Positions 1,867 to 24,142 of a stretch of DNA of 24,733 nucleotides are shown here, piece by piece. The position numbers and the translations under genes are program-made. The stretch's first letter is position 1; the number at the start of each line of letters is the position of its first letter. The DNA comes from a virus. Under the pieces are notes generated by a model. That model was not told the DNA's origin, searched no databases, and was given only the letters and a program-made list of their open reading frames with translations. The stretch spans positions 1 to 24,733 of the IMG/VR virus record IMGVR_UViG_3300042868_007011; one strand, given 5' to 3'.

Positions 1867-1874
1867 TATTTATC
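1867..1874 (-). promoter_or_regulatory. T4-type late promoter motif for the left-edge gene
   Basis: The minus strand reads GATAAATA followed by TAACT and the ATG at 1861. It matches the T4 late consensus TATAAATA at seven of eight positions. It overlaps the gp17 stop (TGA, 1873–1875). The 5-base spacing would put initiation at or beside the start codon. Confidence 0.65.
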
Positions 1875-3459
1875 AATATCCAGTGCTGACGAAGATCGGC
1901 ATAGGCATAGCGTCTTCGGTGATTCTTTCTGACATTTTTTCGTAGATTTGAGGATCCCAGTCGCTGAGCACGTTGGCCATGCGCATGATCAGCAGCGTAG
2001 CACTAACTAGGTCGTCGTGTTCGCCGGTTTTAGCGCCAAATCCTACTCCGTGGGCAACAAATGTTTTAAGTTCTGAAATCAGCGGTTTAGACTTCAACAC
2101 CATTTTTTGCGTTTCTAACATATGTTTTAACTGGCTACAAGAAGTGATCTTTGTGCGATGTGTGGTATTAAATCCCTTGCGGAATTTGCGAACATGGCCT
2201 TTACGCATAGGTTCGCTAAGAAAAAGTCCGTGGAAATTTTCTTCGCCTAAATCGTTTATCACAATTAAAGCAGCTTCACCTAACGTGTTATTTTCTACTG
2301 AATAGTATATCTGCGGATTACCGCCTTTTTCCTCTGCTCGCTCGTGTATGTACCTAAGTATCTCTCTCATGTGCTTAACTTGACTTTGTATAGGTGTTAG
2401 ATTGTGTCGCCACTCTGCAACCTGTTCCATGCTAGGCATTTCAAACACTTGGATAGCACCGTAGTCTCCACCAGTTCCTAGTGAAGGATCGAGTGCTACT
2501 AGATATGTGGCTTTGGGATCAACATCTTTATACCAACGTGTCTGCCCCATAGTCATTATCGGCTCAACACCTTTCATTTCTGCGAGTCGTACTGCGTTGA
2601 TTAGGGTTTCATCGAAGATCAAGAATTCGCAGTCAAATTCTCTACGGAATCGTTCTTCACCAATTTTGCTTCTTTCGGTCTTAGCCCATTCCTCGTCGCG
2701 ATCTGGATGTTCAGCCCAGTGTGCAAAAAACGAAGCAAATCCGTTTTGACCCAATGCCGACTCATTACCGTACTCATCAAACTTTTTGTTTGCTTCGGTC
2801 CAGATAAGAGCAAACTGATCTTCGTCTGAGTTTGGTGTTGATGTAATAATACATTTACCACCTGTAGATAATGTTGGACTTAACGCAGTCCAGAACTCTT
2901 TGGCTTTCTCTGGAGGTTGTACAAATGCAAACTCATCGCAATAGATCAATGAAAGAGATTTACCACGACCAGTATTTTCTGTAGTTGTTACTGCCTGAAT
3001 ACGTGCGCCGTTGTCGTATTCGATTGTATTTCTATTATACGAGTAAACGCCTGCACGAATGAAGTCTGGTAAGTTCTCATAACCAAATCGATAACGATTC
3101 ATGATATCCTGAGCACCTTCGTATTTGTGCGCAGCAATCAATACCTGACATTCCGGAACAAACATAGTATACCACAATAGATACGCACATGCACAGGTTG
3201 TCTTTCCCATCTGTCGAGGCAACATGGCAATGCATTGTTTATTAGTATGATATGATTCGATCAAGCGTTCTTGATATTCGTAGGGCTCGAACGGAATCGA
3301 ACCTCTTGTAGGATGCTGAATTTTTAAGAAGTTTTTAGCAAAGTAAATTGGTCCTGTAATTGGATCCATACATGCTTCTAGATGCTTTACCTCCTCAAGT
3401 GTATACCGTTGAGGGGCATGTGCCTTCTTGATTAAGTTACCGTCTAATGATTTTGCCAT
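1873..3459 (-). CDS. gp17: Terminase large subunit (gp17), packaging ATPase and nuclease
   Basis: 528 aa (T4 gp17 is 610). It is the motor that pumps DNA into proheads and cuts the concatemer. The ATPase has Walker A around residues 80–88 (LPRQMGKTT, like T4 SRQLGKTT), Walker B ending in D175-E176 (LSLIYCDEF) and the coupling motif TSTPN at 206–210. The RNase H-like nuclease domain shows D324 (VALDPSLGTGGDYG), E389 (YYSVENNTLGEA) and D482/D483 (EHDDLVSA), matching the catalytic acid triad of the family. The start ATG at 3459 follows a late promoter motif by 4 bases. The gene lies downstream of gp16, as in T4, but separated from it here by two extra genes and a terminator. Confidence 0.97.
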   Translation of the reverse strand: MAKSLDGNLIKKAHAPQRYTLEEVKHLEACMDPITGPIYFAKNFLKIQHPTRGSIPFEPYEYQERLIESYHTNKQCIAMLPRQMGKTTCACAYLLWYTMFVPECQVLIAAHKYEGAQDIMNRYRFGYENLPDFIRAGVYSYNRNTIEYDNGARIQAVTTTENTGRGKSLSLIYCDEFAFVQPPEKAKEFWTALSPTLSTGGKCIITSTPNSDEDQFALIWTEANKKFDEYGNESALGQNGFASFFAHWAEHPDRDEEWAKTERSKIGEERFRREFDCEFLIFDETLINAVRLAEMKGVEPIMTMGQTRWYKDVDPKATYLVALDPSLGTGGDYGAIQVFEMPSMEQVAEWRHNLTPIQSQVKHMREILRYIHERAEEKGGNPQIYYSVENNTLGEAALIVINDLGEENFHGLFLSEPMRKGHVRKFRKGFNTTHRTKITSCSQLKHMLETQKMVLKSKPLISELKTFVAHGVGFGAKTGEHDDLVSATLLIMRMANVLSDWDPQIYEKMSERITEDAMPMPIFVSTGY

Positions 3460-3516: not shown

Positions 3517-4185
3517 TTAAGAGCTTTTGGCTTCGTTTAATCTTCTCTGCAATTCTGCACGGATGGATTCACGGAAAGCATCTTTCTGCATTGGGTTATC
3601 ACCGCCAGCAACTTTTGGATATGTACCTTTTGATCTGTTTAAATCATCGCCGTTTGGTACTGCTGCATCCATGCCCTTGAAATCTGGACCAGAGGCGCCG
3701 TCTGGAGAATTAGCCCATTCATCTTTTTTCTTATCGTCCATGTCGTCCATGTCAGGACCTTTGTCGTCCATGTCAGGACCTTTGTCGTCCATATCTGGGC
3801 CTTTGTCATCCATGTCGGGACCTTTGTCATCCATGTCCAACGGTAGCATCTTTAACGGTGGCAATTCTGGTTTGATGCTCATAATGCTTGGGCCCGGAGG
3901 TGTTAAACTTGGCAACGCAGGCATCCCCCCTTGTGGCTGATTAATCATATCCGGATTAACTTTGGTCATCAGCTTCATTAGGCTTTCGATATTGTCCATG
4001 CCCTGAGCATTTAGATTTAAACTCATAGACGGAGGAGGTGTATCTGGCTTTGAGTTCATTGTAGAATGCATTGGCGGTGCCATGGGTGGCATATCGCCAC
4101 ATTCTTCTACGGCTAATGATTGTGGTTGAGCATCAACTGGTTGATCCAGCTCACGCATTCTTTGCATTAATTCATTGAAATTCAT
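3517..4185 (-). CDS. Acidic, Met/Pro-rich protein with DMDDKGP tandem repeats
   Basis: 222 aa, no recognised family. The N-terminus (MNFNELMQRMRELDQ) is helical and charged. Residues ~30–115 are rich in Met and Pro, then a seven-residue unit DMDDKGP is repeated four times, followed by DMDDMDDKKK. The C-terminus (AFRESIRAELQRRLNEAKSS) is a predicted amphipathic helix. The composition suggests a mostly disordered protein, perhaps a scaffold, internal head or packaging accessory, but that is inference from its place between gp16 and gp17. A strong SD (AGGGAG) precedes the ATG at 4185. The gene starts 1 base after the preceding stop, so it is probably translationally coupled, and it ends at the terminator. 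Confidence 0.85.
   Translation of the reverse strand: MNFNELMQRMRELDQPVDAQPQSLAVEECGDMPPMAPPMHSTMNSKPDTPPPSMSLNLNAQGMDNIESLMKLMTKVNPDMINQPQGGMPALPSLTPPGPSIMSIKPELPPLKMLPLDMDDKGPDMDDKGPDMDDKGPDMDDKGPDMDDMDDKKKDEWANSPDGASGPDFKGMDAAVPNGDDLNRSKGTYPKVAGGDNPMQKDAFRESIRAELQRRLNEAKSS
3751..3834 (-). repeat. Four tandem 21-bp repeats inside the acidic gene
   Basis: Units at 3751–3771, 3772–3792, 3793–3813 and 3814–3834 each encode DMDDKGP. The first two are identical in DNA, and the others differ at a few positions without changing the peptide. The array stays in frame, so unit number could vary by slippage. Confidence 0.95.
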
Positions 4186-4186
4186 A

Positions 4187-4750
4187 TTAACTCCCTAAAG
4201 CGCTCTTTGCGCCAGCTTTATCTGTTTTGGCCTTAGGCAGCTTGTATTCTGTCTGCACACCCTCTTTCTTTCGAGCCTTGGCGACCTTATCTAAATCTTT
4301 TAAGAAACCCTTGTTGAAATCATCACCGAAGTAGTCTTTGTGTTTGGCATTGGTAGTTTCTTTATAATTAGAATCTGCCAATAGTGCTTTGCCAGATGGT
4401 TCGTTGTCTACCAACAGTTGATCAATTTCACTAGGTTCTCCGCTTCCTCTTACTCTAAAACTTTCTTCAGCTAGCCCAATGGACTTAATGCTGTTTGTAA
4501 TTTCTTGAGAATTAATTGGATATTCACAGATAACTTCAAAAACTGTTACTTCTGCATTAGACATGTTAGGAAAGTCTAGAGGAAATTTTTGGATAGGAGT
4601 TGTAGCTACTTTTTCCAAAGTAATTAGTTTGCATCTATCCAGCTCTGTTTTTAATTTATCTTGAAATCCTTCGGGAATTTCGCCAGCAACTTTGACTTTA
4701 AAGCTGTAGACTTTTTTGCTTTCGGAAAGATATTCTTTAAAAGTTTTCAT
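4187..4750 (-). CDS. Probable capsid-targeted internal/head protein
   Basis: 187 aa. The N-terminus MKTFKEYLSES closely resembles the capsid-targeting sequence of T4 internal proteins IPI and IPIII (MKTYQEFIAEA). It contains an L-x-E site of the kind cut by prohead protease gp21, predicted cleavage after E9. The remainder is an unrecognised globular part (about 13–125) and a Lys-rich, probably disordered tail (about 130–187). Lys-rich tails are common in proteins packaged with DNA. It lies between gp16 and gp17 and starts 8 bases after the gp16 stop, with a late motif overlapping that stop. The targeting function is inferred from the N-terminal resemblance only, and the protease gene is not in the window. 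Confidence 0.8.
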   Translation of the reverse strand: MKTFKEYLSESKKVYSFKVKVAGEIPEGFQDKLKTELDRCKLITLEKVATTPIQKFPLDFPNMSNAEVTVFEVICEYPINSQEITNSIKSIGLAEESFRVRGSGEPSEIDQLLVDNEPSGKALLADSNYKETTNAKHKDYFGDDFNKGFLKDLDKVAKARKKEGVQTEYKLPKAKTDKAGAKSALGS

Positions 4751-4755
4751 AATGT

Positions 4756-4762
4756 TATTTAG
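4756..4762 (-). promoter_or_regulatory. Late promoter motif before the internal-protein gene
   Basis: CTAAATA on the minus strand, 5 bases (ACATT) before the ATG at 4750 and overlapping the gp16 stop codon (TAA at 4759–4761). Confidence 0.5.
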
Positions 4763-5244
4763 CCCTTTTGACCTAATTTTTTCAAGAGCTCGTTTCGATC
4801 GGTAATAACATAACCCTGTCCATTTATCACGTCATTTGGGTCTGCACCGCTATCGTTGTCAATCTTCAATTTCTTAAGTTGCAGATCTACGGCTTTTAAC
4901 CTTTTTTCTATTTTTGCATTTTTAGCATTAATAGCATTGCTCATCATACTAGCTGCTACTTCAAATATACGACCCGAGTAGCGTACTTCTACATTCATGC
5001 CAAGATCCATGAGATCGTCATAGGCGGTTTCTGCTTTCTTTGCTAGCGAATCAAGTTCAGCATCACCTAGTTCATCTAGCTCTTTTATCTGTGGCAGACC
5101 TCTAGTGATCTCTTGGACTGCTTGATAGCTCTGATCTAACGATTTTACTTCTTCATGGACGGGCGTGTCAACAACTAACGGTTCACCAGCCTTGGAAGGT
5201 TCTGATTCTGCTAAATTAAAAAGTTCTTCTAATTTTTTGGTCAT
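4759..5244 (-). CDS. gp16: Terminase small subunit (gp16)
   Basis: 161 aa, close to T4 gp16 (164). The family protein forms a ring that recognises DNA and stimulates the gp17 ATPase. The central segment (about 60–125) includes AETAYDDLMDLGMNVEVRYS, resembling the T4 gp16 central helices, followed by a long helical, coiled-coil-like stretch (KNAKIEKRLKAVDLQLKKLK). The tail ends in RNELLKKLGQKG, like the T4 'REELMKK' end. It lies 7 bases after gp4 and upstream of gp17 in the same transcript direction. A degenerate late-type motif (GATAAGTA) overlaps the gp4 stop ahead of it. Confidence 0.85.
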   Translation of the reverse strand: MTKKLEELFNLAESEPSKAGEPLVVDTPVHEEVKSLDQSYQAVQEITRGLPQIKELDELGDAELDSLAKKAETAYDDLMDLGMNVEVRYSGRIFEVAASMMSNAINAKNAKIEKRLKAVDLQLKKLKIDNDSGADPNDVINGQGYVITDRNELLKKLGQKG

Positions 5245-5251
5245 ATTATAC

Positions 5252-5692
5252 TTATCTGCGTTTTCCGCCTTGATGGAAAATATCGCCTTCGTTTACTACA
5301 CGGAATTTGATACCTTTTTGTTTACACCAGGCAGTGGCAGCTTCCCACTTGGCCATATTTTTTACATATTGTTGCTGATTGTATTGGCTCTTGCCCACAC
5401 TTTCCAACTGTGTCTGGCTCAACGGTTTTACTTCTACTACTTCTGCATGTTTGGTTCCGTTTTTATCTACATAAACCACGAAAAAATCTGGAACATAAAT
5501 CGTATGTTTGCCAGTCAACGGACAACGATATGGAATCTGTATGCTTTCGCTAGCCCACTTTTCTACTCCGGCATGCTCATCTAGTGTCCGCATAAAAACA
5601 AATTCCCAACTACTGCGAGCCAACGGAGTTTTTGTCCCCACATACTTATCGGGGTTCTTCATCTCAAAGCGTCCTTGAGCGAATTTAGGCAT
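5252..5692 (-). CDS. gp4: Head completion protein gp4 (PD-(D/E)xK nuclease fold)
   Basis: 146 aa, like T4 gp4 (about 150 aa), which is needed to finish DNA-filled heads before tails join. It has the TnsA/gp4-like nuclease layout: RSSWE with E30, then P68-D69 (YVPDFFVVYV), then E87-x-K89 (VVEVKP), and a downstream helix YNQQQYVKNMAKWEAA. These are the expected acidic and lysine residues of a PD-(D/E)xK active site, so it is probably catalytically intact. The ATG at 5692 overlaps the preceding gene by 8 bases, which suggests coupling. Confidence 0.85.
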   Translation of the reverse strand: MPKFAQGRFEMKNPDKYVGTKTPLARSSWEFVFMRTLDEHAGVEKWASESIQIPYRCPLTGKHTIYVPDFFVVYVDKNGTKHAEVVEVKPLSQTQLESVGKSQYNQQQYVKNMAKWEAATAWCKQKGIKFRVVNEGDIFHQGGKRR

Positions 5693-11313: not shown

Positions 11314-11709
11314 TTGGCACGTTATACAAGCAGAAAAAGGGGCAGAAAAGGTACGGTTCTTTTAAATACTAGTATGAGACCTCTTTGCAAGTGCGGGCAA
11401 CGCCCTAGAGCTGTTAATTACAAGAAGAATAACAGAGTATACTATCGTAGCCTGTGTGAAATATGCATGGCCAACGGAATTAACCACGGGATACCTCGTT
11501 GGTATAGGGCAGGTTATCGTGTAAAACAACAATGCGAAAAGTGCGGATTTAAATCACCGCATAAGGAAGTATTTAGAGTATTTCACATTGACGGCAATTT
11601 AGACAATTGCCGTCCGGCGAATCTCAAAACAATATGCTGTAATTGCGCTCAGGTATTAGGCAAGGACGGTATAATGTGGAGGCAGGGCGATCTTATCGCT
11701 GACTACTAG
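11314..11709 (+). CDS. HNH-type zinc-ribbon protein
   Basis: 131 aa from a TTG start (MARYTSRKRGRKGTVLLNTS); the next in-frame ATG (about 11374) would lose the basic N-terminus. Two zinc-ribbon-like pairs are visible, C25-x-C27 with C48-x2-C51, and C74-x2-C77 with C108/C109 and C111. The HNH-like core is H91-I-D93-G-N-L-D-N-C-R-P-A-N103-L. The last His usual after the final Cys of HNH nucleases (CxxCH) is Ala112 here, so cleavage activity is doubtful and a DNA-binding role is possible. It is the only plus-strand gene left of 13 kb and overlaps the 3' end of the kinase gene by 54 bases in antisense. Confidence 0.8.
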   Translation: MARYTSRKRGRKGTVLLNTSMRPLCKCGQRPRAVNYKKNNRVYYRSLCEICMANGINHGIPRWYRAGYRVKQQCEKCGFKSPHKEVFRVFHIDGNLDNCRPANLKTICCNCAQVLGKDGIMWRQGDLIADY

Positions 11710-18719: not shown

Positions 18720-19337
18720 ATGCAAGCACCAATGGAAAAAAAAGTTGCTGAAATATTTCCAACGATTATTGTAGGGTACGAAAATCCAAATTTTTCAAAA
18801 ATAAATCCCAAGCTAATCGAAGTGTTAGAAACAATGGCCTATACTCCGCCGCCGTACATTCCCGAGCAAACTCTTGATAATCATTTAGAAAAAAATCCAG
18901 CATTTGCAGAACTGTTCGAGTGGATTAGTCAATGCATTGAGGATTATCGCGTATCGTTTAAGTATCAATGCGATAGTCTAAAACCAGTGTTGTCGTGGGT
19001 TAACCGGGGTAACAAAGACACTGAGCATACAGCTCATACTCATCCGAATTCATTTATATCTGGAATATATTACATTTCCGATAATCCTAGTCCAACATTT
19101 TTTACAGATCCGAGACTTCAAATAAGAAACGGAATTTCAGTGAATAGCTTTACTAAGTTTGGGCAAAATGTTTGGCCGTGCCCTTCAGAAACCGGAACCC
19201 TTGTATTATTTCCTTCGTGGTTAGAACACTATGTTGATGCGCAACCTAACTTAGTTGGATTGAGATATACTTTGAGTTTAAACATAATGCCCAAAGGTCT
19301 AGTTAACGGCAACGGTTTAACTGAGATGACTTACTAA
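18720..19337 (+). CDS. 2OG-Fe(II) oxygenase, 'SGxYY' phage type (1 of 7)
   Basis: 205 aa. The layout fits the putative 2OG-Fe(II) oxygenase family common in marine phages (PF13759-like). A conserved HTHPNSFISGIYYIS block carries H106 and H108, then GTLVLFPSWLEHYV carries the distal H170, then LRYTLSLNI carries R182, the likely 2-oxoglutarate anchor. The first ligand pair is HxH rather than the textbook HxD, as in others of this sub-type. Substrate unknown. It is the first gene of a coupled operon; its TAA overlaps the next ATG (TAATG). It diverges from the tail-fibre gene. Confidence 0.85.
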   Translation: MQAPMEKKVAEIFPTIIVGYENPNFSKINPKLIEVLETMAYTPPPYIPEQTLDNHLEKNPAFAELFEWISQCIEDYRVSFKYQCDSLKPVLSWVNRGNKDTEHTAHTHPNSFISGIYYISDNPSPTFFTDPRLQIRNGISVNSFTKFGQNVWPCPSETGTLVLFPSWLEHYVDAQPNLVGLRYTLSLNIMPKGLVNGNGLTEMTY

Positions 19338-19915
19338 TGCAGAATATGAAATTATCAGATTTTATCTTTGTAAAAAATTCAATTCCTCTAGAGACTTGTC
19401 AGACTGTTATTAATCAAACTAACGAGTTAGAATGGATCACACATTCTTGGTACGATCAAACTGAAAACAATAGTATATCGCACAACGAAAAAGAATTAGA
19501 AGTGTTGTATCCAGATCATAGCACTTCACAACTGTTAATGGATTACGTGCTTTCAGGATTTAAAGAATATCGAACTTTGTGTCAATCATTTAGCCCCAAC
19601 ACAGATTTTTCTAGAATAGTGACACAATGTTGCGGTATTAGATTAAATCGTTACAATGCTAATACACTTATGAGACAACATTTTGATCATATTCATTCAT
19701 TATTTGATGGTACTCAGAAAGGGATTCCAGTACTATCAGTAATAGGAATTTTAAACAATGATTATCGAGGCGGAAAATTAACGTTTTTTGATGATTACGA
19801 AATTGAAACTACGGTTGGAGATATTATTATTTTTCCTAGTTCTTTTTTATATCCTCACAAAGTTACAGAAGTGTTAGCAGGAACAAGATACAGTTTAGTC
19901 AGTTGGGGTTGGTAA
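19337..19915 (+). CDS. 2OG-Fe(II) oxygenase, prolyl-4-hydroxylase type (2 of 7)
   Basis: 192 aa. The C-terminal half shows the P4H-like double-stranded β-helix motif: RLNRYNANTLMRQHFDHIHS with H115-x-D117, SVIGILNNDYRGGKLTFFDD, GDIIIFPSSFLYPHKVTEV with H174, and TRYSLVSWGW with R184. All iron and co-substrate residues are present, so it is predicted active. Of the seven oxygenases it most resembles classic prolyl hydroxylases. The start overlaps the previous stop by one base; an ATG nine bases further in is possible. Confidence 0.88.
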   Translation: MQNMKLSDFIFVKNSIPLETCQTVINQTNELEWITHSWYDQTENNSISHNEKELEVLYPDHSTSQLLMDYVLSGFKEYRTLCQSFSPNTDFSRIVTQCCGIRLNRYNANTLMRQHFDHIHSLFDGTQKGIPVLSVIGILNNDYRGGKLTFFDDYEIETTVGDIIIFPSSFLYPHKVTEVLAGTRYSLVSWGW

Positions 19916-19917
19916 TT

Positions 19918-20685
19918 ATGGAGAAAATTTTCTTTGCACCAAAGATGGAAGGATATTCAACACCGTATGAACATCCGCTGTTTGAAGAAGAAGTGTTTAT
20001 ACCGCCAATGCCGTATCTTGAACATTATAAAGAATATCACTATAAACATGTTTATTGGAAATGTCCGGCTTGGCAAAAATATTATAAAAATTGTTATGTG
20101 ATATTTTCTCAAAAAGATATTGAAATTAATTATAAAAAAGAAAGCGGCGAAATCCATAGAGATTCGTTTGAACATTGTGTATTCGACGAAGGTGTCGAAG
20201 CTGGATTAATTGCTCCGTTTATCCCCAATGGTCCACAAATTCATCACACAATGCCGTATCACGGCGTTGCCGTTGGACAGATTCGGCAGCATTATGTTTT
20301 TTGGAATGAATCTAAGAATAAACATCTGTGGGTAGAAATTATTTCGGCCCCCGATCTGCTTAGAACCCACGGAATGGAATTAATTTCGGCCGAGTATCCG
20401 TTTAGTAGATGGTTGCGACCTTCTCTGTTTGCCTTTAAATTTTACAACGAATCAACAGTGTTAAAACGCGGAACTCCGTTGGGTGTTGTTAGATTTAAAG
20501 ATGTAAATGCTCATGGTGTTGATTTTAATCTAGAAAGAAAAAATCCAAGCGACACCGTCAAAAGAAAATCGCAAAATCATTCATTACTCAAATATTTTTT
20601 ACCCAATAAATCCTGGGGCATGATTAAAGACGAACCCAAATCAGACAGATGTCCGTTTAGTAAATTTTGGAAGAAATCTAAATGA
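19918..20685 (+). CDS. Phage protein of unknown function in the oxygenase operon
   Basis: 255 aa from ATG 19918, two bases after the previous stop; a TTG further upstream is in frame but overlaps the upstream gene. It has aromatic-rich KHVYWKCPAWQKYYKNCYVI, a middle part with HHTMPYHGVAVGQIRQHYVFW, and RWLRPSLFAFKFYNES followed by RGTPLGVVRFKD. The pattern recalls a phage family of unknown function (DUF6065-like) often found near such oxygenases, but I cannot confirm that. No catalytic motif, signal peptide or membrane segment is evident. The C-terminus is Lys-rich. Its stop overlaps the next start (ATGA). Confidence 0.75.
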   Translation: MEKIFFAPKMEGYSTPYEHPLFEEEVFIPPMPYLEHYKEYHYKHVYWKCPAWQKYYKNCYVIFSQKDIEINYKKESGEIHRDSFEHCVFDEGVEAGLIAPFIPNGPQIHHTMPYHGVAVGQIRQHYVFWNESKNKHLWVEIISAPDLLRTHGMELISAEYPFSRWLRPSLFAFKFYNESTVLKRGTPLGVVRFKDVNAHGVDFNLERKNPSDTVKRKSQNHSLLKYFLPNKSWGMIKDEPKSDRCPFSKFWKKSK

Positions 20686-21716
20686 AGCACTGTTGGCATG
20701 TGTGGGACGATTCTAAAACTAGTCCTTTAGAAAAATATGTTAGAGAATTATCAACCGATTCAAGAAATTCTTTAATCCTGTGTTCTGCTGAAGAATCTTA
20801 TCCCTCCAAGATGTTAATAGAAAAAATGATACCCTTAGACAGCGACGGATGGCCAATTTCATTTGGACATTATCCTCAGTTTGTACAAAATTTAAAAAAA
20901 CTAGAAACAGTCGATATTATTATAGGATCTAACGACCCAACAATTGGTGCTGACTATCTAATACTTGGGAATGTACATACTTGGTCTAATTTTTTTCTAT
21001 TTGTTGCATATGATAAATTAGATATCGAATCTCTGTCTAACAACAACATATTTTCAAAATTATTTTTATCTATGAACACCAAGGCAAAATACCATAGATG
21101 TTTACTAATGGACTTGCTGCATCGAGATTCACTAACAGATATTGGAATATACTCATGGCATCAACAACCAGTCAGTTGGGAGGAGGGTGTTTATAATTGG
21201 CAGTACTGGGAGCCTAAAAAAGTATCGTTTGATGAACATTATGATCCAACTTCTCAAAATAGGGTATTACATCAACACAAATTACCTAAAGAATTTAATT
21301 ACTCATTTTTAATATTAGTACCAGAAACATATATTGATCAAATATTCATTACTGAAAAAACTTGGCATCCTATACTTTCAGAGAAACCGTTTATTTCGTA
21401 TGCGGCTCCGTTTTTCCATAGAGAATTAGAAAACCAAGGGTTTGAATTATATACAGAAATTATAGATTATTCGTTTGATAGCGAATTAGATTTTAAAATA
21501 AGAGCAGAATTAATAGTTAAAGAATTATCACGATTAAAAGTTTTAGATTTTAATAAATTGTATGAAATAATTAAACCAAAGTTAAAAAAGAATAAACAAG
21601 TTGCAATCAATATTATGAAAAATAAAATAGGGGTCCCGGCTATCGCATATCAATGCAGTCAATATAGTGAGTTAATTTCTCGAGTAATTACTAGGATAGA
21701 AAATATAAATGAGTGA
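20682..21716 (+). CDS. Glycosyltransferase-like protein
   Basis: 344 aa. The clearest element is IFITEKTWHPILSEKPFISY at 221–240 followed by FHRELENQGFELY. This matches the donor-site pattern (TEK…A/P…G/K-P-xxx) at the end of GT-B glycosyltransferases such as the fucosyltransferase/exostosin group. An upstream SMNTKAKYHRCLLMDLLHRD at 130–149 also fits those families. The N-terminal half is unlike anything I know, so the sugar donor and acceptor are unknown and the assignment is moderate. It sits within the oxygenase operon (ATGA overlap before, 8-base overlap after), suggesting glycosylation of a hydroxylated target or of an envelope or virion glycan. Confidence 0.65.
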   Translation: MKHCWHVWDDSKTSPLEKYVRELSTDSRNSLILCSAEESYPSKMLIEKMIPLDSDGWPISFGHYPQFVQNLKKLETVDIIIGSNDPTIGADYLILGNVHTWSNFFLFVAYDKLDIESLSNNNIFSKLFLSMNTKAKYHRCLLMDLLHRDSLTDIGIYSWHQQPVSWEEGVYNWQYWEPKKVSFDEHYDPTSQNRVLHQHKLPKEFNYSFLILVPETYIDQIFITEKTWHPILSEKPFISYAAPFFHRELENQGFELYTEIIDYSFDSELDFKIRAELIVKELSRLKVLDFNKLYEIIKPKLKKNKQVAINIMKNKIGVPAIAYQCSQYSELISRVITRIENINE

Positions 21717-22416
21717 GATGTATTCATTGTTCCCAACCCCTGTACTAAGAGTACCAGCTACCTTAGAAAACTACGATCCTGTTCAGTTAGAAATACAAGC
21801 GGCATGGAATTTGATTCAATCAACAACCGATTTCTCGTCTACTTCTTATCTTTATAAAGATACAGATATCCGACTAGCTGACAAAACTTATGACTTTATT
21901 GAAAAATTTAACTGTGTTAATTTAAAAAATAGAATAATTGAGGCGGCCAACGAATACTTAGATAAGTCAGGCTGGTTGGGAATGTTTACCAGCGACCAAC
22001 GAGTGGTTATTAAAAACTCATGGATCAATATTGCAGGTATTGGAGATTTTCATGATGTACATTGCCATCCAGGTTATGCTATATCGGGCTCATATTACTT
22101 TAGAGTTAGCGAAAAGCAAGGGGCTCTTACATTTAATAATCCTAACCCAATGATGTTTGCCTGCGAGTTTCCAGGCGGTAGAATGTGTCCTCAACGCACA
22201 GACGTGGTTCCAGACGATGGTGATATTATACTATTTCCAAGTTGGTTGGTTCATAGTACTAAAAAAAATACTACTGCTGAAGATCGTATTGCTGTTGCAT
22301 TCAATATTGATCTAATTAATATAGTAGAGGATCGAGTATTGGGATTAAATAAAGGAACACACATACCGCAGCATGGTAAAGAACTTTCGTTAAAAGGCTT
22401 AAGAAATACTAAATGA
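21709..22416 (+). CDS. 2OG-Fe(II) oxygenase, 'SLFPTP' type (3 of 7)
   Basis: 235 aa. The N-terminal YSLFPTPVLRVPATLENYDP motif is shared with the gene at 23477. The catalytic half has WINIAGIGDFHDVHCHPGYA with H118 and H120, ISGSYYFRV, GDIILFPSWLVHSTKKN with H182, and EDRIAVAFNI with R193. A C-terminal tail of about 35 residues (from 201) is absent from the paralogue. It overlaps the glycosyltransferase gene by 8 bases and the next gene by 4. The N-terminus carries the exact 41-base match to the paralogue. Substrate unknown. Confidence 0.87.
   Translation: MSEMYSLFPTPVLRVPATLENYDPVQLEIQAAWNLIQSTTDFSSTSYLYKDTDIRLADKTYDFIEKFNCVNLKNRIIEAANEYLDKSGWLGMFTSDQRVVIKNSWINIAGIGDFHDVHCHPGYAISGSYYFRVSEKQGALTFNNPNPMMFACEFPGGRMCPQRTDVVPDDGDIILFPSWLVHSTKKNTTAEDRIAVAFNIDLINIVEDRVLGLNKGTHIPQHGKELSLKGLRNTK
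21760..21800 (+). repeat. 41-bp exact direct repeat, copy A
   Basis: Identical to 23525–23565. Both lie in the same frame and encode TLENYDPVQLEIQ and flanking residues. Similarity drops on both sides. Confidence 0.9.
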
Positions 22417-22967
22417 TTACTGTAATCGACGACTTTTTGCCATACATCGAAAGTGAAATATTATCTAGGGCATTAACAAATCCGCAAGTTACATGGGTAG
22501 GGTCTAATGCAGTATACGACGATGATCCGTTATCTCCTAGATGCGATCCTAAATATAATTTTCAATTATGTCATGTATTTTTAGAGTCTAAATCACAGGT
22601 GATGATAAACAAAAATACATTTCATTTACTAGATACATTAGTTAAAAAAATTAATGCATCGGAGTGGGTTAGAATTAAATTAAATTTAAACCCTTGCAAT
22701 TCTCAAATTATAGAGCACGGGTTTCACATTGATCATCATTCGCCAAGACCAGATTCCTGGACAGCAATTTATTATGTGAATAGCAACGATGGATACACAC
22801 TGTTTGAAGATGGTACTAAAGTAGCAAGTATTAAAAATAGGTGTGTAATATTTCCATCAAAATTGCGCCATTCTGGAACAAATTGCACTGATGTGTATGC
22901 ACGGCTAGTATTGAATTTAAATTTTTATAAAGAAAATATAACAGAGTTAACTAACTGTGGATTATAA
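22413..22967 (+). CDS. 2OG-Fe(II) oxygenase, short type (4 of 7)
   Basis: 184 aa. Catalytic signatures are IIEHGFHIDHHSPRPDSWTA with H105-x-D107, IYYVNSNDGYTLFEDGTKV, CVIFPSKLRHSGTNC with H153, and YARLVLNLNF with R164. All expected ligands are present. The opening ITVIDDFLPYIESEIL is a typical start for P4H-like phage oxygenases. Coupled by ATGA overlap to the upstream oxygenase. Substrate unknown. Confidence 0.85.
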   Translation: MITVIDDFLPYIESEILSRALTNPQVTWVGSNAVYDDDPLSPRCDPKYNFQLCHVFLESKSQVMINKNTFHLLDTLVKKINASEWVRIKLNLNPCNSQIIEHGFHIDHHSPRPDSWTAIYYVNSNDGYTLFEDGTKVASIKNRCVIFPSKLRHSGTNCTDVYARLVLNLNFYKENITELTNCGL

Positions 22968-23466
22968 ACTATTTCAATCGTCTTACGTCGTTGATAATCA
23001 ACAATCGTTTATCGAACACTGTAATTTTGTAAAATTGCAAAATTCAAATACAGATCTAACTAAAAGCTATTACAAATACAACATTTTTTCAGCCACAGCT
23101 GGCTCTATATATTTCTATAATTTATTTAAAGAGCTTAGAGACATTATTAGAACAGAATTGCCCACAGGATCTCTTTGGATGCAGGCATGGATTAACTATC
23201 ATACTCAGGATCAAGTACTTGACTGGCACAATCATTCTTGGGATTACCACGGGTACATATCAATCGATCCAAAGCTCACTATTACAGAATTTGAAAATTA
23301 CAGTATAGAAAATAAAGTAGGCCAAATATATTTTGGTCCAGGTAAACGGTTGCATCGCGTTAAGACTGTGAAGCCATTTGACGATTATCGAATAACTATA
23401 GGCTACGATATAACTACTGATCCTGTTATGGGAACAGGATGTCTAGGCCTATTCCCCCTTTTATAG
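22957..23466 (+). CDS. 2OG-Fe(II) oxygenase, HxH variant (5 of 7)
   Basis: 169 aa from a GTG start overlapping the previous gene by 11 bases; no ATG fits near. Ligand candidates are H91-N-H93 in VLDWHNHSWDYHGYISI, H133 in GPGKRLHRVKTV, and R145 in DYRITIGYDI. The overall jelly-roll order matches the other oxygenases, although this one is more diverged and the FPS motif before the distal His is replaced by YFGPGKR. It is probably an iron/2OG enzyme, with less certainty than its neighbours. Confidence 0.75.
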   Translation: MDYKLFQSSYVVDNQQSFIEHCNFVKLQNSNTDLTKSYYKYNIFSATAGSIYFYNLFKELRDIIRTELPTGSLWMQAWINYHTQDQVLDWHNHSWDYHGYISIDPKLTITEFENYSIENKVGQIYFGPGKRLHRVKTVKPFDDYRITIGYDITTDPVMGTGCLGLFPLL

Positions 23467-23476
23467 AGAATACATC

Positions 23477-24142
23477 ATGCCATTATACAATCTTTTTCCA
23501 ACTCCTATTTACAAAGATCCAGCCACCTTAGAAAACTACGATCCTGTTCAGTTAGAAATACAAGCAGCCTTGAAGACTATTAAAGAAACCGACGATTTAT
23601 CTCATGTATCGTATATCTATAAAGATGCAGGTGCTCGTAAGCAGGCAAGAGGAGATCACGAAAAAGCATATTTTATTTCTGATGATTTAATCGGAGAATA
23701 CGGGCTTGTTAATTTAGAAGCTAGAATTTACGAAGCACTAGGTCGATACTTAGCTTTAGTGAATTGGAGTGCGTTATCGCAAACTAAAGATGCAGTAGTT
23801 CCAAATTTATTAAATGCCAATTTTAAAATAATGAATTCTTGGATTAATATTGCAGAAAAAGGAGTACGACACGATTACCATTCGCATCCCGGGTATACAA
23901 TTGCCGGGTCGTATTATTTTAGAGTTAGCGCAGACCAAGGGGGGATCAATTTTAATAATCCAAATTTAATGCTGTATAATTGCGGATTTCCAGAAGGCGC
24001 TCAGTCGCCGCAAACTTTAGAATTAATTCCAACCGACGGGGATATTATTTTATTTCCGGCTTGGTTGCAACACGGAACAAGTATCAACACTACCGACGAG
24101 GAACGTATCAGTGTTGCATTTAATATCAATTACATAGTCTAA
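23477..24142 (+). CDS. 2OG-Fe(II) oxygenase, 'NLFPTP' type (6 of 7), paralogue of 21709 gene
   Basis: 221 aa. It shares the layout of the gene at 21709: LFPTPIYKDPATLENYDPVQ, WINIAEKGVRHDYHSHPGYT with H135 and H137, IAGSYYFRV, GDIILFPAWLQHGTSIN with H199, and EERISVAFNI with R210. It has about 25 extra residues in the middle (around 50–115) and lacks the C-terminal tail of its partner. Last gene of the operon; AGAG serves as a weak SD. It converges on the right-edge oxygenase with 9 bases between stops. Confidence 0.87.
   Translation: MPLYNLFPTPIYKDPATLENYDPVQLEIQAALKTIKETDDLSHVSYIYKDAGARKQARGDHEKAYFISDDLIGEYGLVNLEARIYEALGRYLALVNWSALSQTKDAVVPNLLNANFKIMNSWINIAEKGVRHDYHSHPGYTIAGSYYFRVSADQGGINFNNPNLMLYNCGFPEGAQSPQTLELIPTDGDIILFPAWLQHGTSINTTDEERISVAFNINYIV
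23525..23565 (+). repeat. 41-bp exact direct repeat, copy B
   Basis: Identical to 21760–21800, 1765 bases apart. It sits at the equivalent codon positions of the paralogous oxygenase gene. Confidence 0.9.

Follow-up and report, generated by a model that had tools for sequence, protein, structure and literature searches.

We propose that, in a clade of T4-like jumbo phages, a conserved minor head protein of 187 amino acids (aa) carries a T4-like capsid-targeting tag at its N-terminus and would be cleaved after the glutamate at residue 10 (E10). We put the probability of this reading, which was built from sequence comparisons, at about 0.66. The protein is encoded in a 24.7-kb virus record (hereafter, the window), a fragment of the T4-like jumbo-phage type. 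In a comparison of two near-complete relatives, G001 and G002 (~64,000 residues each), just three proteins keep the exact motif YLxES: the major capsid protein, at its predicted propeptide end; the gp21-type protease, at its C-terminus; and the 187-aa protein, at its N-terminus. Of the new evidence for the predicted tag and cut, this three-protein match is the strongest.

The gene and its locus

The open reading frame (ORF) lies on the minus strand at positions 4187 to 4750, with its ATG at 4750-4748 and its stop at 4187-4189. The N-terminus of the protein reads MKTFKEYLSESKKVYSF, and the opening residues of the ORF are MKTFKEYLSESKKVYSFKVKVAGE. The start codon call is correct, because 95 distinct close homologues share the same aligned Met. 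Other minus-strand genes of the window encode a gp13-like neck protein, a dNMP-kinase-like ORF, the sheath, and two tail-tube-like proteins. Immediately around the 187-aa gene, also on the minus strand, are a 161-aa upstream ORF that weakly resembles the small terminase (4759 to 5244; phrog_16202, 1.7e-14; phrog_445 terminase small subunit, 8.8e-5), a gp4-like head-closure gene (5252 to 5692; phrog_218 head closure, 4.4e-38), a downstream 222-aa acidic repeat protein for which the profile search gave no family match (3517 to 4185), and a gp17-like large terminase (1873 to 3459; phrog_36964, 4e-119; Terminase_6N, 3.6e-19). The GPDMDDK repeats of the acidic protein are encoded by a 21-base tandem repeat of 4.6 copies at 3741-3837.

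When we compared the window with PA5oct, PBECO4, Munch, CBB, RaK2, XaC1, and Vibrio 2.275.O, the conserved order proved to be that of the 187-aa gene beside the gp4-like head-closure gene and the small-terminase-like ORF. The initial annotation had placed the gene beside the terminase; gp17 is indeed near in the window, but this adjacency is not general, as gp17 is located elsewhere in PBECO4 and CBB.

The hexamer TAAATA stands at 4756-4761 (minus strand), just before the 187-aa gene, and also precedes starts at 1861 (minus), 3459 (minus), 7179 (minus), 11374 (plus), and 13113 (minus). It is common in the clade (window, G001, and G002), where the ATG follows 10 to 11 bases from its first base with no Shine-Dalgarno sequence between, and of 60 distinct upstream regions for the 187-aa gene, 59 carry it. 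The TAAATA-to-ATG spacing peaks at 10 to 11 in G001, with no such peak in PA5oct. The T4-type late promoter element is centered near −10. If TAAATA is an element of this type, the first base of the transcripts would be the A of the ATG, making these late mRNAs leaderless.

Two other features of the window deserve mention. A cluster of 2OG-Fe(II) oxygenase-like ORFs occupies 18720-24142 on the plus strand (18720-19337, 19337-19915, 21709-22416, and 23477-24142, with a weaker member at 22413-22967), in which 21709-22416 and 23477-24142 resemble paralogues. A small HNH/zinc-finger-like ORF (11314-11709, plus strand; an HNH_3 match that misses the Pfam cut-off, E 9e-4) sits between the kinase and sheath genes on the opposite strand; in G001 and G002, its counterparts open with MRPLCKCGQRP and have TAAATA ahead of them.

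A conserved virion family

A profile search matched residues 1-113 of the 187-aa protein to PHROG 14802, a family of virion structural proteins (E 4.7e-8), and the match survives removal of a relative's first 11 residues (8e-8). Judged by sequence, then, the protein is a member of a conserved virion family and no orphan, and its earlier description as new and uncharacterized falls away. A Pfam search with the protein gave nothing significant. Homologues were recovered by tblastn in Sinorhizobium phage Phosso and in PA5oct-type, PBECO4/121Q, Atu_ph07, and Munch-type phages, and via intermediates in CBB, GAP32, RaK2/K64-1, XaC1, Vibrio 2.275.O, and Serratia BF. Within IMG/VR, a single-sequence search yielded 61 confirmed relatives and a profile search at least 379; scans queried with the PA5oct and Vibrio homologues returned no matches.

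The members of PHROG 14802 include CBB_210, PA5oct gp282, RaK2 ORF047, PBECO4 gp016, and XaC1_279, all classed as virion structural proteins. They share with the window's protein homology over residues 1-113, an N-terminal helix in the same position, and the same neighbors, but they are only 22 to 32% identical to it, several have lost E10, and their tails are acidic where the window's is Lys-rich. CBB_210 was found in CBB virions (13 unique peptides, 60.5% coverage; PMC5259590) and PA5oct gp282 in virions by ESI-MS/MS according to its record; both results place the homologue in the particle as a whole, be it in head, neck, or tail.

The gene behaves like a core gene. Twelve contigs were selected by the capsid gene alone; gp17 is present in four, all four of which carry the 187-aa gene, and the remaining eight are fragments with neither. 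Identity to the G001 and G002 orthologues is 72 and 65% for the 187-aa protein, 66 and 66% for the sheath, 65 and 68% for the second tail-tube protein, and 83 and 90% for gp17, placing the protein at the level of sheath and tail tube and below gp17. The T4 internal proteins, by comparison, are described as highly diverse defense proteins with only the tag in common (PMC3012670). This contrast casts doubt on a counter-defense reading and suggests, at the level of sequence conservation, a standard head part and not an injected anti-defense weapon.

An N-terminus like the T4 capsid-targeting tag

The T4 record gives MKTYQEFIAEA as the beginning of both ipII and ipIII, and MKTFKEF as that of ipI. 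The likeness to MKTYQEFIAEA noticed at the outset is real, although it had been ascribed to IPI and IPIII when it belongs to IPII and IPIII; what IPI and the window protein have in common is MKTFKE[FY]. The 1,429 ORFs of four related genomes and the window were ranked on how well their 11 N-terminal residues scored (BLOSUM62) against MKTYQEFIAEA. The G001 orthologue scored 34 (z 6.0) and the G002 orthologue 30 (z 5.4), and the next ORF scored 16. The window protein's tag scored 31, a value reached by 1 of 305,225 ten-residue segments in those proteomes; as the T4 comparison was chosen post hoc, the rank weighs more than the p-value. The phrog_2667 profile (“internal head protein”) matches the G001 and G002 orthologues with scores resembling those of T4 IPII and IPIII, a match that disappears without the first 11 residues, and it matches the window protein itself weakly (E 0.1).

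These comparisons support the prediction that codons 1-10 (4721 to 4750, minus strand), encoding MKTFKEYLSE, specify a capsid-targeting propeptide. The initial annotation had also proposed looking for further MKT-F/Y-xE starts; our search of G001, G002, PA5oct, and PBECO4 found no other protein with a comparable N-terminus, leaving one tagged protein per genome, the 187-aa orthologue. We found no paper reporting the literal tag sequence. Past the tag, the body of the protein matched neither Pfam IPI_T4 nor the PHROGs of the T4 internal proteins, so that the statement that it has no other resemblance stands toward those proteins, though it overlooked PHROG 14802. A BFVD match to Ip7 of phage MX01 (E 3e-3, TM 0.22) was weak and nonspecific and was dropped. 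Like IPI, IPII, and IPIII, then, the protein has a first 11 residues of the same type, [LI]-x-E with a small residue after it, and a gp21-type protease in its phage group; unlike them, it is near-neutral, is present in one copy per genome, and is no fast-changing accessory gene.

The predicted cut and the prohead protease

The predicted prohead-protease site, L-S-E|S, spans codons 8-11 (4718 to 4729, minus strand). All 95 distinct close homologues have E at position 10; position 8 holds L in 93 of them and I in 2, position 11 holds S, N, or G, and position 9 varies among A, T, S, V, and I, in a set fetched partly with a pattern covering the N-terminus, which may inflate N-terminal conservation. 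The first homologue scan relied on internal peptides alone, and the four contigs picked by their capsid gene keep MKTFKEYL[AT]ESKK. Fixed positions 8 and 10 around a free position 9 are the pattern expected of P3-x-P1. The L-x-E site proposed earlier is thus present, but since it spans residues 8-10, the P1 Glu is E10 and not E9; we infer a cut at E10|S11 that would leave S11 as the new N-terminus.

The window, a 24.7-kb fragment, has no protease gene; Peptidase_S77 is encoded in all nine genomes tested. The G001 capsid gene adjoins protease and scaffold genes and carries NTRKYLAESATAGATSAGN near residue 40; most of 89 examined capsid proteins have YLxE[ST] at that position. By homology to T4 gp23, this should be about the end of the propeptide, the pairwise alignment being loose at the cut. 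The protease C-terminus of relatives contains KYLAESLKK, and the same end of T4 gp21 reads ALAEAMKKAL. The T4 control sites are FLTE|A in gp23, FIAE|A in ipII and ipIII, and ALAE|A at the C-terminus of gp21, and auto-cleavage of the protease C-terminus is documented in a giant phage (PMC5694885). Two further motifs of the form YLxEN are conserved, YLRENYPEDF near residue 43 of one ORF (G001 C1 85848-89252) and YLAENGGRIR deep in a 2,555-aa ORF (123747-131414), each with a G002 counterpart; they may be protease sites or chance.

Cleavage cannot be universal in the family, because E10 is lost in PA5oct (YYDA), Phosso (YLSS), Munch (ILTS), XaC1 (ILTA), and RaK2 (ILTD); it is retained in CBB, PBECO4, Vibrio 2.275.O, and Atu_ph07. 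Nor is L-x-E kept at the protease C-terminus of PA5oct or Phosso. These losses do not refute cleavage in the window's clade, since equivalent head proteins are processed differently among giant phages (PMC5694885). In SPN3US/phiKZ-type phages, as predicted here, the prohead protease removes N-terminal propeptides and processing differs between relatives (PMC5694885), but those propeptides are mostly >100 residues, and we saw no sequence relation to the window protein. With T4 gp24, gp23, and other gp21 substrates, it would have in common a short N-terminal propeptide ending in L-x-E that is cut at maturation; its fold is unrelated, and it is no shell protein.

Predicted structure and the tail

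An AlphaFold2 (AF2) model built from 62 sequences (mean pLDDT 64.8, moderate) places helices at residues 4-10 and 143-162 and a beta-alpha-beta-beta-alpha-beta domain at approximately 12-104 (residues 12-104, 4439 to 4717, minus strand; pLDDT ~70-80 over most of it). The domain resembles ribosomal S6/PII-type ferredoxin-like folds in Foldseek and VIA-align, with Z up to 8; as modeled, this is a common arrangement that carries no functional message. Sliding clamps appeared in a family-profile search of the PDB at E 0.6-0.8, which we judged to be chance. On the model, the predicted cut falls in the linker that joins the helix to the domain and would leave the domain whole.

Residues 116-187 (4190 to 4405, minus strand) form a mostly flexible tail with low pLDDT and a helix at 143-162. 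It is Lys-rich as first described (15 K, 1 R, pI 9.5), although over its full length the protein is close to neutral (pI 7.6), and within the family only the window's clade has such a Lys-rich tail. The tails of distant relatives are neutral or acidic (pI ~4-6.5 in PA5oct, PBECO4, Atu_ph07, Phosso, and Munch), and a DNA-binding role for the tail can therefore not hold for the family as a whole.

Alternative explanations

Under the reading that we favor, the 187-aa protein would enter the prohead together with the scaffold core by virtue of residues 1-10 and would then be cut after E10 by a gp21-type prohead protease, whose predicted site on the major capsid propeptide is the same YLxE|S motif. 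The mature 177-residue protein, a ferredoxin-like domain with a flexible tail, would remain there as a minor, conserved constituent of the head, with a role that is probably structural or packaging-related. The loss of E10 in relatives keeps one serious, if unlikely, rival in play, namely, that the N-terminal helix is never cut and docks permanently, e.g., to the portal, the neck, or the inner capsid face, with L-x-E serving helix packing. Conservation of the helix beyond E10, a residue for which five relatives have A, S, or D, would fit such a role, as would the presence of the PA5oct homologue in the virion without E10 and the position of the gene next to head-closure and packaging genes. 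A docking helix does not, however, account for a motif identical to those of the capsid propeptide and the protease C-terminus in the same genomes, for a residue 9 that varies freely between fixed residues 8 and 10, or for the similarity to the T4 tag. A tentative way to join the two is that the tag is removed by the shell protease in some lineages and left as an uncut helix in others.

It is improbable that the protein is ejected with the DNA, like a T4 internal protein, to block a host nuclease or other defense. The resemblance of the tag to IPI-III and the homologues in virions speak for the anti-defense role first suggested, but the gene is a core gene kept across phages of many host genera and present wherever gp17 is, its body evolves like the structural genes and not like the highly diverse T4 internal proteins (PMC3012670), and the whole protein is near neutral and not basic; we regard that suggestion as unsupported. 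Most improbable of all is a chance likeness to the T4 tag. Eleven residues are few, the comparison was picked afterwards, and [LIV]xE[STNAG] occurs somewhere in the first 15 residues of 25 to 29 ORFs per relative genome; yet the tag score falls far outside the distribution, and the N-terminus is nearly invariant across the 95 distinct homologues.

Implications

The family, the order of its genes, the finding of homologues in virions, a protease gene in relatives, and the recurrence and conservation of the motif across the capsid, the protease, and the 187-aa protein all rest on searches or published work, from which we deduce targeting, cleavage, an inner location, and the role. A jumbo-phage “structural/hypothetical protein” thereby gains a specific prediction, a ten-residue packaging tag cut at E10|S11. 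If this is true, YLxE|S would be the protease motif of this clade, the tag could be used for loading cargo into jumbo-phage heads, and T4-type targeting would extend past the variable anti-restriction proteins. If cutting is lineage-dependent, the T-even tag would be an old shared device of head assembly, put to anti-defense use only in some phages.
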